Source of the DNA: Lunasporangiospora selenospora
Taxonomy: Eukaryota > Mortierellomycota > Mortierellomycetes > Mortierellales > Mortierellaceae
Direction: 5' to 3'
Length of the DNA stretch: 24,005 nt
Assembly: GCA_015680635.1 (NCBI GenBank)
Contig: JAABOA010000124.1
Location: forward strand, 1-24,005
The notes under the pieces are model-generated. The model was not told the origin of the DNA and searched no databases. It saw nothing but the letters and a program-made list of their open reading frames with translations. Positions 11,511 through 24,005 of the stretch are shown in pieces (position 1 is the first letter of the stretch; the number at the start of each line of letters is the position of its first letter). Made by a program: the position numbers and the translations under genes.

Positions 11511-11885
11511 CTACCTTCCGGGGGATGGTGGCTGGGAACTTGGGGTTGTTGCCTTTGTCAACTCTATGCGTAGCTCCAGGACCCTCCTTTCATGCTCCAT
11601 CTCCGACCTCTTAAGTTCTGCTCCTATTTCACTTGCCCCAGCTCCTATCCTCCTCGCTCCAGCTCCTATCCTCCTCGCTCTAGCCTCTACCCTCCTCGCC
11701 TTAGCTTTTACCCTCCTCACTTCTGCATCCAATTTCCTGGTCTCAATCTCCGCCTGCCATAGAGCAGCTTCCTCGCGCCATAGCCTGAGCTCGAGTTCCT
11801 TGATTTTGACATTGTTTTCGGATATGTCGCAAGATGCATCGGTTACTCGATAAAATTTTGTAGAAGATCGCGATTTCGCGTTTGC
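11511..11885 (-). pseudogene. Coiled-coil ORF fragment, possibly an element-associated second ORF
   Basis: The frame is open from 11885 down to the stop at 11511 (124 codons), but its only Met codons lie well inside (first at 11732), so a start is missing unless it is an exon. The readable product includes KIKELELRLWREEAALWQAE, then heptads of Arg/Ala/Gly/Glu, then EMEHERRVLELRIEL, and a Ser/Pro tail. This is a long charged amphipathic helix, so a coiled coil. It faces the dead transposase, 180 bp away. Harbinger-type elements often carry a second, Myb-like ORF with a C-terminal coiled coil, so a common origin is possible. No Myb/SANT domain was found upstream, so this link is weak. Confidence 0.4.
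11620..11724. repeat. Five-copy 21-bp minisatellite
   Basis: Five head-to-tail 21-bp units run 11620-11640, 11641-11661, 11662-11682, 11683-11703 and 11704-11724. Units 2 and 3 differ at one base (gctcctatcctcctcgctc-c/t-a) and the outer ones diverge further. On the minus strand each unit codes exactly seven residues (ARRIGAG and variants), one coiled-coil heptad. Confidence 0.9.
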
Positions 11886-12857
11886 CTAGACCGCCCTCTG
11901 GACCCGGATGTTTTGTTGGAAGGACAGGCAGAAGATGCACGCGGGTCCCAACGGAAATGACACGTCCAGGGCGCACTGATCCTGCTCGAGATGACGCTGA
12001 TTACGGGGCTGGTGATGGCGTGGACCAGGAAGTCGATTTGATTTGGTCATGTCTAGTCAGTGGCGCATCCTCTTCTTCTTGATCTGTGGCCCAACTAGTC
12101 GGGGACCTCTCGGCGGGCCGACTTGCACCTCTTCCTGGTAACGTTCGCTTGTGTGGTATCAACCACGCGAGCGATCATTTCTGCCCCCTGATAAATGGCA
12201 GGAGGATACAAACAAGCCTCTCCATCGTCTTGGATCTCATACCAAGTCCACTAGTAGTCTCCCTCGTCAAAAGCGCAAATTTCTCAGCCATCCATACTCG
12301 CCCTCTTCACCCAAATTCAAACCACTTTACTTCTGAAGAGACCGAGGAGTTCCCCATCCTCGTACTTGATAGTCCTGACTCCTTGGTTACCCTGAATACT
12401 TTACTCGCCATTGACAATTGTTCTTTGGACCAAAGGCCGAAAACACAACACAGACCTACAGCATGAACCTCTCATCACCTATTGAAAGCGGACCTTGATC
12501 CACTCGGGCCACTTCCTCTATTCAATAGGAATACTGCTGGTTCAAAAAGTGGCTTTCACGAAACGTGCTGAAATTTCCAGCACTGTTCCCTGCCATTCAT
12601 GCACGCAGGGATACACGGGGATGGATAGAGATGGGTGCAACAGATGGGGGTGCGGTTGCAGTCAGTGGAGGCTCATGCGCTAAAGAGGATTTCAGGGGAG
12701 AGAAAATAGGAGGATCCAGCTCAAGCGCAAAAAGAAGAAAAAAAGATGGTGGATCAAGACATTCCCGAAAATATCATCCTTGTGAAAGTCCATTATATTT
12801 AAAGGTAACTTTTTCTTTTTCCTATTTTCTCACAACCTCGACTATTTCCATTACGAT
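11886..12857. other. Gene-poor region left of the tandem array
   Basis: Several overlapping ORFs of 60-130 codons occur on the plus strand (for example 12086-12466 and 12565-12870), none with a recognised domain. Near the right end a Lys/Ser-rich stretch (12700-12804) is followed by an AAG-GTAACT donor-like site at 12805. A T/C-rich segment and TAACTCATAG ending at 12870 come next, which is the first acceptor-like site of the array. This is a possible exon-intron junction leading into the repeats, not a called gene. Confidence 0.35.
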
Positions 12858-15800
12858 TGGTAACTCATAGCATTCACTCTGTACTTATGCCACAATCACT
12901 CTGTACTTTTCCATCTTTCACTTCCAACTGTCTATTTGTCCATGCCCAATTAGTTGGTAAGAACAGTTATTCCTTCAGATCTGGCACGAACTTTGTCCCT
13001 TCCAACAATGCACACGATTACTCACAGTATTCACTTTACACTTTCTTACGCTATACGTTCACTATCTCTTCATACATAATCAATAGTTGGTAAGGCTCTT
13101 TACACAGTCAGCCCTAGCACGTATTTTATCCCATCCACCATTGCACATGATTACTCATAGGATTCACTCTATACCTTTCCACTTTTCCACTATTACCGTC
13201 TCATTGCTCATGATCAGTAGCAAGTAGGAGCATTCGCTCACTTAGATCTAGCCCACAATGTGTCCTGTCCCTCACAGTGAATGAGGATCCTCAGCACTCA
13301 CTCTGTAATTTTCAACTTTACATCTTCACTGTTCATGATCAATAGCTCGTAATTATATTCGCTCACTTAGGTCTAGTACGCAATGTGCCTCATCCATTAT
13401 TCCAAATGAGATCTCAAATTATTCACCCTGTATTTTCCACATTTCAACCTCACCATTTTATTCATGACCGATAGGGGAGGGGGGTAAGAATACTCACTCA
13501 GTCATATCTTGCCTGCATTGTGCTGTATCCCTCATTACACATGATTACTAATAAATCACCTTGAACTTCTCCGCCTTGCGACTACACTTTCTAATAATCC
13601 TCGACCAATAGTTGGTAAGAGTATTCCATCATTCAGATATAGCTAGTATTGTGCCATGTCCACTATTGAGAATGACGACTCACCGTATTCACTCTATACT
13701 TCTCCACCGTTCACCCTCATCATCTCACCATTCATGATCAAAAGCAAGTAAGAACACTCGTCGATTTGGATCTAGGTCGCACTGCACCCCCATACATAAT
13801 CGAGAGAATGATTACTCACAGCGTTGACTCTGTAATACCTTTTTACCACTTTCTGGTTGCTCACGATCAAAAGCCTGTAAGAACATTCCCATCTTCAGAC
13901 CTTGTACCTACTGACCCACCTATCATTGCGAGTAATAATTCACAGCTTTCACTCTTTACTTCTCCATTTTTCTCCTTCGCTATCTCATTGTTCGTGGTCA
14001 ATAGCGAGTAAGATATTCTCTCATTCTGATCTAGCATGCGCTGGCCCATACTTCATTGCGAATGATTACTCACAGCAATCGCTCTGTACTTCTCCACCTT
14101 ACAACTGCACTATTTCGTTGCTCATGATCTATAGCCAGTAAGAGCATTCCCTGAGTCAGATCTAGCTCGCACTGTACCTTATCTATCGTTGAGAATGACG
14201 ACTCGCAGTAATCAATACGTACTTTTCTACCTTGTAACCTCACTACCTCATTTATCATGATCGATAACAAGTAAGTACACTCACTCATCTATTGTCTATT
14301 TGCATGGTTTTCCTTATGAAATCCATCTTTTTATTTGTCAACAAAGAGCATCGAGTCACAAAAATTATCCCACACCGCCCCATCACCTATTGTGCTTGAT
14401 TACTCACAGCGTTCAATCTGTTCTTCTCCACCTTTCTACTCTCACCATCCCGTTGTTCATGATCAAAAGCGAGTAAGAACATTCGTCGGTTTAGATCCAG
14501 GTCGCATCATTGCAATTGATTACTCATAGCGTTCACTCTGTTCTCCTCCACATGTTATCTTTACCATCTCGCTATTCGGTCCCAATTAGGTGGTAATGAC
14601 ATTCTCACATTCGGACCTTGTACGCACTTTGTCCCATCCATTATTGTGAATGATTAATTACTCTGAATTATTTTTTACTTTTCAACCCCACCGTTTTTAT
14701 TATTATTATGAATAGCCCGTAAGAGCATAGGTTATTCTAGCCTTGGACATACTGTCTCATCAAATATTGAGAATGATTACTCACAACATTCAATCTATAC
14801 TTCTCCACCGTTCACCCTCACCATCTCGTTGTTCATAATCAAAAGCAAGTAAGAATAACCCCTTATTTAGATCTAGCCAGCATTGTGCCATGTCCATCTT
14901 TGAAAATGACGATTCACAGCCTTCACTCTGTATCTCTCCATCATTAACCCTCACCATATCGTTGTTCATGATCAATAGAGAGTAAGAACATTCCCTCATT
15001 AAGATCTGGCACACATTTTGCCATATCAACTTCTGAGAATAACGACTCACAGTACTCACTCTGTAACTTTCCACTTTATATCTTCACCATATCATTGCTC
15101 ATGATCAATAGCTAGTAAGTACATTTGCTCACTTTGGTCTCACACAATGTGTCCCATCCCTCAATGCAAATGAGGACTCACAGTATGCACTCTATGCTAC
15201 TCCACTTTCCACCCATCATGTCGTTGTTCATGATCAAAAGCTTGTAAGGACATTCGCTCACTTAGATCTAGCGCACAATGTGTCCTGTCCTTCACAGAGA
15301 ATGACAACTCACAGCATGCACTCCGTATTTCTCCGCTCTTCACCCTAACCGACTCGTTATTTATGATCAATAGCTAGTAAGAATACTCCCTCGTTCAGAT
15401 CTAGCCTGAATTGTTCCAAGTCCATTTCTGAGAATGACGACCCTCAGCACTCACTCTGTAATTTTCCTCTTTACATCTTCACCATCTCATTATTCATGAT
15501 CAATAGCTCGTAAGGGCATTCGCTCACTTTGATCTAGCGCGCAATGTGTCCCATCTATTATTCCAAATGATTACTCACAGCGATCGCCCTGTACTTCTCT
15601 ACCGTTCACCCTCACTATCTCGTTGGTCATGCTCAAAAGCCCGTAAGAACACTTTTTATTTGGATCTAACATGCACTGGTCCATACCTCATTGTGAACGA
15701 TTACTCACAGAATTCGCTCTGTACTTCTCTACCCTACAACTACACTATCTCGTTATTCATGATCAATAGCCCGTAAGAGCATTCCCTTATTCAGACCCTG

Positions 15801-16042
15801 CCCACATTGTGTCCCATTCATTTTTGAGAATGACCACTCACAGCATTCACTTTGTGTTTCTCCACCTTTCACTCTGAATGTCCCGTTTTTAAATGGCAAT
15901 AGCAGGTAAAGGGTCTTATTCATTTAGATCTAGGCCGCACTGCTCCTCATGTCTTATTACAATTGATTGCTCACAGTATTCGCTTGTATTATTGTAACGT
16001 CCGCCTCGACTCTCTCGTTGGTCATAATCAATAGCTTGTGAT
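12858..16042 (+). repeat. Degenerate tandem array, about 24 units of about 133 bp, with splice-like motifs
   Basis: A GTAAG-like mark recurs at 12957, 13090, 13224, 13349, 13484, 13615, 13748, 13877, 14008, 14138, 14271, 14473, 14593, 14719, 14849, 14982, 15115, 15244, 15377, 15510, 15643, 15773, 15906 and 16038. Spacing is 120-135 (mostly 129-134), with one interval of 202. A typical unit reads ACTCACAG, then CATTCACTCTGTACTTCTCC, a pyrimidine-rich stretch, TCGTTGTTCATGATCAATAG, two or three bases, GTAAGAACATTC, a GATCTAG core, CAATGTGTCCCATCC, GAGAATGATTACTCACAG. The mark is GTAAG in 19 of 24 units and begins GTA in 23; the TCACAG-like end keeps AG in 19 of 24. The period is not a multiple of three and frames break from unit to unit, so one continuous protein is unlikely. 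It is a satellite-like array of unknown role. Confidence 0.9.
14272..14472 (+). repeat. Irregular long unit within the array
   Basis: Here two successive GTAAG marks are 202 bp apart instead of about 133. The extra 70 bp or so (about 14290-14365, including a TTTGCATGG..AAATCCATC stretch) resemble no neighbouring unit, whereas the right part (GATTACTCACAGCGTTCAATCTG onward) returns to the consensus. It looks like an insertion into one unit or a junction between two sub-arrays. Confidence 0.6.
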
Positions 16043-22378: not shown

Positions 22379-24005
22379 TTACTTCTCTTTCTCATTAATA
22401 ATCTCCATCTTCTGGTCACTATATCCAGTTTCCGTCTCGGTGGTCTCATCACCGCCAAACTTGGCGTCTTGTGCATCATGGTCAAGAGAGAGATCGACTT
22501 TCTTCATCAAAAGAGTGAAGAGACCAGCGATGACGACCATAGAGGCAGAAATGATGGAGAGAATCATCTGTGCGTCACCATAGGCAGCGATGGCCTGCGA
22601 GTATGTAGGCTCAGTGAGAGCCTGGACGGCATCGACATTGTTTATGATCTTGAACTCGTCGTACTCGCCCTGGATATGATGTCTGAGACGCTGGGGCAGC
22701 ACCTGGGTCCAGACGCTGCCTGCAATGGTGCTACCGATCGAACTGATAATGGAGTTCATCATCGAGTTGACACTGATAGCCATGGCGTAATCACGGCGAT
22801 GGACGGAACCAGTGATCGCAACGATGGAAGCGAGAGAGGTCATACCATCGCCAAGACCGACAATGGCTTGTGAAATGGCGACAAAGAAGTCTGACGAGCC
22901 GGGCAAACGAGCAGGGATCATGACAATGGTACCGATGGTCTGAATGATAAGACCAATCCAGATGAAGCGGCGAGCGGCCATGAACCTCTTCATCAGGTAG
23001 CCAGTGATAGGCTGGGTAATGTAGTACGCCATCTGATAACCACGGGCGAGCAGGAAGGCCTTGGAGAATGGGATGTTGCGTGTGACAACAAGGTAGTTGT
23101 AGAAGTATGTGTAGTTCATGGAAACCATCAAACTACTAACAATGCTACCACAGATAGCACCCATGACAGTGCGATCAGACCAAATGCGCTTTGGCAACAT
23201 TGGCTTGGTGGCGAACTTGGCGTTCCATACGAGCAAAGCGATCAGACATACACCACCAGCACAAAGGCAGCCAATGACGATGGGGTTCTTGAAGTTGCCT
23301 TCGTAGGTATTGGCAGTAATCAGCGGGAAGAACGTAAAGGCCAAAGTGGCAGCCAAGATAAAGGCACCGACGAAATCAAACTGCTGAAGGAACCAGCGGA
23401 CCGTGCGACGGGGGCGCTCTCCTAGCATCTTTTCACCCTTGCGTTGGAAGTACCACAGAGGAGTCACCACCAAGATCGCACCTGCGGCGACAAGACAGGT
23501 GCAAATCAACAAGCCCGTGCGCCACATATCCTTTGTCGCGAGACGATCCACAACACTATTAGTGAAAATAAAAATGGAAGGGATCAGACTTTTGTTACAA
23601 TCATATTCAAGAATAACAGAAATTATTCTAGTCAGAGAAAGCAAAGTGTAAACGTACGCTTGGCCAACCCAAATGTTGATGACATTGCTGAGATCCATGA
23701 GACCAATGAAAATTCCACGGTGCTTAAGCGGCGTTACGTCTATACGCGAGAAATGCGAGCAAATGTGTGAGTTGAATAACCAAAGATAAGTTTGAATGAG
23801 CACAATGTTGTGTCGACGCACACTCAAGCAAAGGTCACACACAGCTCAGCCATCCAAGTGAATGGTATTGAGCGATCTGCAGCCATAACCCCTTCCTCAC
23901 TTACCAGCAATGATAACAGACTGCAAGCAGCTATAACCAGTATTGCCAATGCTACCAAGGAATCCGCCGACAGTCAACTGGATGAATTCTTTCGAAGTTG
24001 TCTGG
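22379..24005 (-). CDS. MFS siderophore-type transporter, 5' end outside the window
   Basis: Predicted exons are 24005(+)-23905, 23739-23658 and 23555-22379 on the minus strand, 452 residues visible. Introns are 165 bp (GTAAGT..GTATAG, phase 1) and 102 bp (GTACGT..CTAATAG, phase 2). Splicing gives a continuous QSVIIADVTPLKHRGIF and then NIWVGQAVVDRLATKDMW. The product is a proton-coupled major facilitator permease. The VIIADVTPLKHRG loop, the FDFVGAFILAATLAFTFFPL segment and the KPMLPKRIWSDRTV motif resemble fungal siderophore-iron transporters (ARN/SIT/MirB family), which import ferric siderophores. Roughly the last ten membrane segments are present; the first ones lie beyond the window. The C-terminal tail is short, cytoplasmic and acidic (ETTETETGYSD). 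Substrate cannot be read from sequence. Iron-dependent control is usual in the family, but the promoter is not in view. Confidence 0.87.

Follow-up and report, generated by a model that had tools for sequence, protein, structure and literature searches.

Among described genes, those closest to the tandem array analysed here are the micro-exon genes, such as the bicycle genes of aphids and the micro-exon genes (MEGs) of schistosomes, which have a 5′ signal peptide and whose exons are not known to lie between tandem copies of a single intron. The homothorax gene of Drosophila reportedly has a 3-bp exon. Passages of PMC9168663 describe bicycle genes as having many tiny internal exons of phase 2 and encoding fast-evolving, putatively secreted proteins. 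At the ratchet points of Drosophila, AG and GT are juxtaposed within long introns and nothing is left in the mRNA (as described in part of PMC8605326). Exons of 1 nt are described for Fusarium CYP621A, with transcript evidence (in part of PMC12940212), and for Arabidopsis APC11, where intron definition and recursive splicing were proposed (in part of PMC4674806). Our array is in contig C105 of the assembly of Lunasporangiospora selenospora (Mortierellaceae; Mortierellomycota), a stretch of 24,005 nucleotides called the window below, and occupies about 12,850-16,041 of its + strand. We consider it likely that this array makes up the body of a gene built from tandem introns and 3-nt, one-codon exons; such genes would encode small secreted peptides.

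With bicycle genes and schistosome MEGs, such genes would share tiny internal exons of one phase, fast evolution, putative secretion and a 5′ signal peptide. Those exons code for several residues, whereas here all internal exons of the long arrays but one would be a single codon, and the introns are copies of one another. As in recursive splicing, acceptor and donor nearly touch and stepwise intron removal would be likely, but three bases would remain at each step: at intact junctions of the three long arrays AG is not immediately followed by GT, three bases (once nine) lying between them. APC11, CYP621A and homothorax indicate that splicing can cope with exons as small as 1-3 nt, in a fungus too; each of these genes is reported to have one such exon, whereas here they would come in runs of dozens. 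Among the literature matches listed (open papers), we found neither runs of 3-nt exons in one gene nor a description of a protein growing residue by residue through copying of an intron and a codon.

An earlier note on this DNA had reported a 133-bp unit repeated about 24 times, with GTAAG at a fixed place in 19 of 24 units and GTA in 23. The recount gave identical figures for 24 units; a length of exactly 133 bp was measured in 9 of them, and one of 129-134 bp in 18. A profile search placed units at 12849-16035, and Tandem Repeats Finder recovered the regular half alone (14767-15855, period 133). GTA in 23 of 24 units agrees with U2-type donors, in which GT is followed by purine-rich positions +3 to +5. 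The same note had paired each donor with an acceptor-like AG, giving 71-nt introns and 62-nt exons. By eye, that AG does follow TACTCAC-like sites in 19/24 units of the window, as had been counted, and an automatic rule, which chose a neighbouring CTCAC in some units, found it in 14 of 22 or 23. It is not general: C22, the longest array, has it in 2/56 or 4/56 units. A second signal had gone unnoticed, the AG of CAATAG, which is 3 nt 5′ of GTAAG and as conserved as the donor. When GTAAG is re-paired with CAATAG, the unit becomes one ~130-nt intron and one 3-nt exon. The proposal of selection for splicing with many mini-exons thus gains support while the pairing falls, CAATAG being the probable acceptor, and the doubt that 62 nt does not keep frame is removed, since a 3-nt exon preserves it.

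The junction stood out in the unit alignment: its two most variable columns (identity 0.38 and 0.36) are the bases directly 5′ of GTAAG, preceded by CAATAG C. When the assembly (8.2 Mb, 475 contigs) was searched for relatives of the unit, the pattern ATGATCAATAGCNNGTAAGAAC with at most 3 mismatches matched 100 times, mostly in tandem, on 13 contigs, against 0 matches for the reversed control; an exact-pattern scan of viral contigs gave 0 matches. In total, 14 loci had 145 junctions, 134 of them with both AG and GT, so that the other arrays which the note had suggested looking for do exist. The long arrays are those of the window (23 junctions and one of 9 nt), C337 (31) and C22 (56); the other loci are C121 (7), C142 (6), C361 (4), C352, C91, C96 and C90 (3 each), C411 and C62 (2 each) and C425 and C202 (1 each). 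C228 matched in the terminal region only. The 145 junctions were curated from a scan whose site score favoured AG and GT. Not counted among them are the 9-nt exon of the window, exons at either end of a gene (first or terminal), two junctions from the inverted portion of C352, and the degenerate sites C22 8339, C96 3619 and C411 4148. The window junction at 16035 fits AG-NNN-GT and is among the 145, although it was treated as a terminal exon too.

Over the 145 junctions, A at -2 was conserved in 143, G at -1 in 142, G at +1 in 140, T at +2 in 143 and A at +3 in 142. These were the five least variable of 38 columns, with three bases separating AG from GTA. The introns themselves have diverged: identity was 0.45-0.70 in 1278 of 1431 unit pairs of the window and C337, and 0.55-0.80 in 1361 of 1540 pairs of C22. 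The comparison of the motifs with the rest of the unit, also suggested by the note, thus came out in favour of the motifs, whose retention is no matter of chance. Because the original site score favoured AG and GT, we hid the seven junction columns, built new profiles from the curated positions and repeated the search of the three long arrays. Among the 112 units that spanned the junction (5 more matches did not), 105 read AG-NNN-GT and one AG-(9 nt)-GT. The exceptions were the first exon of C22 (GT, no AG) and its terminal exon (AG, no GT), two C337 junctions that are intact but were shifted in the alignment, and two without AG. Throughout the long arrays the putative internal exons are small, of 3 or once 9 nt, and intron lengths range over 93-383.

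The note had seen no clear CTAAC branch site, a doubt that did not hold. A GATTACTCAC-like sequence lies ~62 nt 5′ of the junction, and the acceptor-like TACTCACAG is best read as a branch site (TACTCAC). In 53 aligned units the identities of the CTCAC columns were 0.79 (C), 0.87 (T), 0.87 (C), 0.91 (A) and 0.83 (C), consistent with the CTNAC-like branch motif of U2-type introns. The best site read YTNAY in 20/23 units of the window, 23/31 of C337 and 54/56 of C22; these are upper figures, since the scan favours A and T. In a scan with the same preference, a branch-like site was present in 142/145 units, with its A in 140. For C425 the branch distance is meaningless, its junction being at the contig end.

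Between this site and the acceptor, AG is avoided. In 142 units (the 3 of 145 without a branch-like site were dropped) AG occurs 9 times in these tracts, where 1000 shuffles gave 136 on average and 106 at the least; GA occurs 180 times in the same tracts. Among units with a branch-like site, the tract had no further AG in 21/22 of the window, 30/31 of C337 and 55/56 of C22; the acceptor is thus the first AG past the branch-like site, as in U2-type introns. To allow for shared ancestry, letters were also shuffled within alignment columns over the last 50 nt. In this column test AG occurred 1 time against 9.0 expected in the window (0/1000 shuffles as low), 3 times against 9.5 in C337 (2/1000), and 4 times against 20.4 in both jointly (0/500). 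Eight of nine other dinucleotides stayed within the shuffled range of the joint test. In the upstream half of the intron, the window and C337 showed no AG depletion (76 vs 82). The upstream half in C22 had fewer AG than all 300 shuffles (66 vs 82, minimum 73), for which we offer no explanation.

A distant branch site with exclusion of AG up to the acceptor, AG close to the branch site being bypassed, is a known intron mark (as described in part of PMC1431707). Our units share with those introns the far branch-like site, the AG-free interval and an AG next to the branch that would be bypassed; the introns in that part of PMC1431707 adjoin human exons and are not in tandem arrays. Within the window, an intron of a major facilitator superfamily (MFS) transporter gene, placed by protein homology, ends ...TTCAACTCACACATTTGCTCGCATTTCTCGCGTATAG and has the same ACTCAC upstream of its acceptor. 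Two MFS introns placed in this way were used as reference, because ab initio intron training was too noisy in two attempts (16 candidates with 1 above threshold; 81, mostly implausible).

The variable bases lie within the putative exons. In column entropy over the window and C337 (131 columns), exon base 3 ranked 1st and base 2 ranked 2nd, while base 1 ranked 37th. Unit pairs of these arrays with 0.60-0.75 intron identity agreed at exon bases 2 and 3 in 15-32%; 12 closer pairs agreed more often. If exon base 1 is the third codon position, this pattern is the one to be expected where amino acids evolve fast and the wobble base varies little.

Paralogous first exons precede the array in C337, C411, C142, C91, C202 and C361. 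All six have an open frame that breaks off after the second base of a codon (phase 2), and a GTAA donor follows immediately. By eye, the six have a hydrophobic, signal-peptide-like leader, with a non-ATG codon at the aligned start in C142 and C91. At the other end, similar 3′ regions are found in C142, C411 and C121 and, by eye, in C22. A stop within 6 codons of the last exon was found in phase 2 at 7/8 loci, in phase 0 at 4/8 and in phase 1 at 0/8. In C337, whose small exons have AG and GT intact in 30/31, the joined product would begin with the leader MAPSLRSLIILLATLVMFASAAN, continue as ICCCYIYAPGDYISCYFDRCPDGFIEQPAKRCNF and end at a stop, with 57 residues in all and rich in Cys. That of C411 would have 35 residues and the C-terminus DQEYF, and that of C22 would be a low-complexity Pro/Gly/Arg chain. 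C22 has a short first exon, ATG TTT AAT GGG CG, before GTAAG (L056, reverse strand about 1138-1255); TATATAAGG is about 100 bp 5′ of this ATG, and AATCAATAG directly 5′ of it may be an older acceptor.

We propose that a single phase-2 intron was duplicated in tandem, each copy taking along the three bases downstream of it. Each ~130-nt unit would be a complete spliceosomal intron, with a GTAAG donor, a CTNAC-like branch site, a ~57-nt AG-free pyrimidine tract and a CAATAG acceptor, and the exon would be the three bases from one acceptor to the next donor. In the fuller members, a phase-2 signal-peptide first exon would lead into the run of 3-nt exons and then into a terminal exon with an early stop. 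A codon would consist of bases 2 and 3 of one 3-nt exon and base 1 of the following exon, which is mostly C or T. In fungi it is mostly the intron that is recognised as a unit, so a tiny exon would be no obstacle in itself. Two spliceosomes would hardly fit 3 nt apart, and therefore ordered splicing by intron definition is most likely, every step adding one codon and exposing the next donor; this is the mechanism put forward for APC11, here dozens of times over. Each duplication would add one residue and keep the frame, and loss or skipping of a unit would remove one, since nearly all exons are 3 nt. The sequence itself shows the anatomy, the family, the avoidance of AG, the variability of the exon bases and the phase of the first exons; that the array is transcribed, spliced in this order, translated and secreted, and what it does, are predictions from the DNA, and the products would be small secreted peptides such as those of C337 and C411. 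We lean slightly towards a wider view, in which genes of this fungal family would spell out most of a secreted peptide with one exon for each codon: tandem copying of an intron with its codon would add residues, codon positions 1 and 2 would then diversify quickly under constant intron signals, and stepwise or variable splicing would make peptide repertoires.

Several observations weigh against this explanation. On the side of the introns, the distance from branch site to AG is ~62 nt, against about 30 nt in the two introns placed by homology. The column test in C22 alone was not significant (1 vs 3.2), because its tracts are more alike, and AC was above the shuffled range in the joint test (210 vs 191.5, maximum 208), as if it had replaced AG sites. 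Many short arrays have decayed. On the side of coding, exon bases 2 and 3 of C22 ranked only 7th and 10th in entropy, a weaker effect, and in this cleanest of the arrays neither a signal peptide nor an early stop in phase 2 is evident; the DNA 3′ of it reads N. First exons of equal length differed by codon position at 76, 67 and 80 sites, or 16, 22 and 32 with C361 pairs omitted, and those of C411 and C142 differed by 7 nonsynonymous and 2 synonymous codons. Three of the eight last exons (window, C361 and C425) also read AG-NNN-GT, their terminal status being our call; the other five, which are partly homologous, have the early stop in phase 2 in 4/5, in phase 0 in 3/5 and in phase 1 in 0/5. 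The 120 phase-2 codons contain 0 stops, as weak support for coding: exons shuffled in order had a mean of 1.7 stops, 13% of the shuffles were free of them, and so is phase 0. The peptides of the window and C337 showed no significant likeness, 25% of shuffles being as good. A word search of 5.8 billion proteins gave no homolog of the C337 peptide, which would be expected if genes of this kind escape prediction; for the same reason, we regard the family as analogous to bicycle genes and MEGs and not a member of either.

Some of these points would fit a spliced array whose product is a non-coding RNA, or whose splicing merely sheds a repeat, with the peptide a by-product. AG avoidance and junction conservation are independent of coding, C22 shows neither a signal peptide nor an early stop, and the stop tests are weak. 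We nevertheless judge this unlikely, given the six open, signal-peptide-like first exons all in phase 2, the early phase-2 stops (7/8, and 4/5 of the strict last exons), the exon length fixed at 3 or 9 nt beside introns of variable length, and the variability of exon bases 2 and 3 and not of base 1.

That the array is an ordinary, unspliced satellite with a common protein-binding site is very unlikely. The tandem structure would suit it, as would the lack of RNA structure and family matches: RNAalifold predicted 0 pairs from 48 units, and we found no Rfam match at E <= 1 and no tRNA. A satellite, however, gives no reason why the conserved bases divide precisely as AG-NNN-GT around near-random bases, why avoidance of AG is confined to the part of the intron from branch to acceptor and does not extend upstream (window and C337), why the first member in C22 has a donor only and the last an acceptor only, or why signal-peptide-like exons precede the arrays at six loci. 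Unspliced coding was rejected as well, the period of 130-133 being mostly not a multiple of 3 and a 111-aa open reading frame (ORF) over two units having no homolog.

We give almost no credence to the 71-nt introns and 62-nt exons of the earlier note. The counts of GTAAG and of AG in the window speak for them; the rarity of the required AG in C22, its position 3 nt from the CTNAC-like motif, where bypass would be possible (according to part of PMC1431707), and the exon length of most units, 62 nt and so not a multiple of 3, speak against, and the conservation of CAATAG and AG avoidance within the 62 nt would be left unexplained. An 84-nt exon from CAATAG to a GTACTT donor, suggested by the consensus, was rejected, since the C22 units that were read lack GTACTT and have stops in that frame. 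Just as improbable is an array of introner-like transposons, with 3-bp target-site duplications posing as exons: the units would indeed be introns in many copies with 3-bp spacers, but target duplications would make adjacent 3-mers alike, and identical neighbours occur at shuffled frequency in all three long arrays (window 2 vs 1.4, C337 2 vs 2.1, C22 9 vs 10.4), and the 100 pattern matches are mostly tandem.

The features of the window array, as assigned under the reading as introns and 3-nt exons, are listed in Table 1. This copy has no counterpart of the first exon, with its signal peptide, of the paralog C91. In C91, exon 1 is flanked by two copies of TACGATTG, and the window has one copy (both by eye); exon 1 was probably removed by deletion between these direct repeats. 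The window array is thus probably a decaying member of the family without its first exon. We read it as a truncated member that lost selection recently, because AG avoidance is still visible there.

Table 1. Putative exons, junctions and other features of the array, in window coordinates
Feature	Position	Strand	Basis or detail
5′ remnant: leader-like TTACGATTG fused to the 3′ half of an intron (with TAACTCAT, a pyrimidine tract and the acceptor CCCAATTAG)	12850..12953	+	By-eye comparison with C91
3-nt exon TTG	12954..12956	+	AG/TTG/GTAAG
3-nt exon TTG	13087..13089	+	Unit alignment, junction table
3-nt exon CAA	13221..13223	+	Unit alignment, junction table
3-nt exon CTC	13346..13348	+	Unit alignment, junction table
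9-nt exon GGGAGGGGG, 3 codons	13475..13483	+	AG-(9 nt)-GTAAG
3-nt exon TTG	13612..13614	+	Unit alignment, junction table
3-nt exon CAA	13745..13747	+	Unit alignment, junction table
3-nt exon CCT	13874..13876	+	Unit alignment, junction table
3-nt exon CGA	14005..14007	+	Unit alignment, junction table
3-nt exon CCA	14135..14137	+	Unit alignment, junction table
Degenerate junction ATAA/CAA/GTAAG, acceptor AG gone	14268..14270	+	Junction table, masked profile search
Rearranged stretch, resembling 3′ flank of C90 array	14271-14400	+	By eye
3-nt exon CGA	14470..14472	+	Unit alignment, junction table
3-nt exon GTG	14590..14592	+	Unit alignment, junction table
3-nt exon CCC	14716..14718	+	Unit alignment, junction table
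3-nt exon CAA	14846..14848	+	Unit alignment, junction table
3-nt exon AGA	14979..14981	+	Unit alignment, junction table
3-nt exon CTA	15112..15114	+	Unit alignment, junction table
3-nt exon CTT	15241..15243	+	Unit alignment, junction table
3-nt exon CTA	15374..15376	+	Unit alignment, junction table
3-nt exon CTC	15507..15509	+	Unit alignment, junction table
Example intron, regular unit	15510..15639	+	Donor GTAAG 15510-15514; acceptor AG 15638-15639
Branch-like TTACTCAC of example intron	A at 15577	+	
AG-free pyrimidine tract of example intron	15581-15637	+	
3-nt exon CCC	15640..15642	+	Unit alignment, junction table
3-nt exon CCC	15770..15772	+	Unit alignment, junction table
3-nt exon CAG	15903..15905	+	Unit alignment, junction table
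Final array junction AG/CTT/GTGATC	16035..16041	+	As phase-2 terminal exon: C TTG TGA (Leu-stop)

In C352 (L014, reverse strand 1-960), which adjoins the contig end, the array is in two opposite orientations, with three units each. C202 (L075, reverse strand 715-1080) has the open signal-peptide-like exon and one 3-nt exon before the array ends abruptly, and is possibly another truncated member. C228 (L074, reverse strand about 2340-2551) carries a stretch resembling the family's terminal 3′ region, with no array ahead of it; further upstream, by eye, is a direct repeat (about 150 bp) that is unrelated.

Elsewhere in the window, the public model P0001 of the MFS transporter (22379-24005, minus strand) is partial. 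It lacks an upstream exon, which is visible in the window by homology to Podila and Linnemannia proteins. A minisatellite at 11620-11718 has 4.7 copies of a 21-bp unit. A GTC / TCGTCGTCATCA repeat (2832-2907) lies inside an Asp/Glu-rich stretch of a minus-strand ORF adjoining a bromodomain exon; this ORF and the exon are probably one gene.

If our explanation is true, these would be the most extreme micro-exon genes known to us, with up to 56 exons of 3 nt per array. They would bear on the minimum length of an exon under intron definition and on whether splicing can pass through dozens of exons of near-zero length, and they suggest a route by which introns may build coding sequence, one residue per duplication. 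No standard gene finder known to us predicts exons of 3 nt, and annotations of Mortierellomycota may therefore lack a class of secreted peptides.

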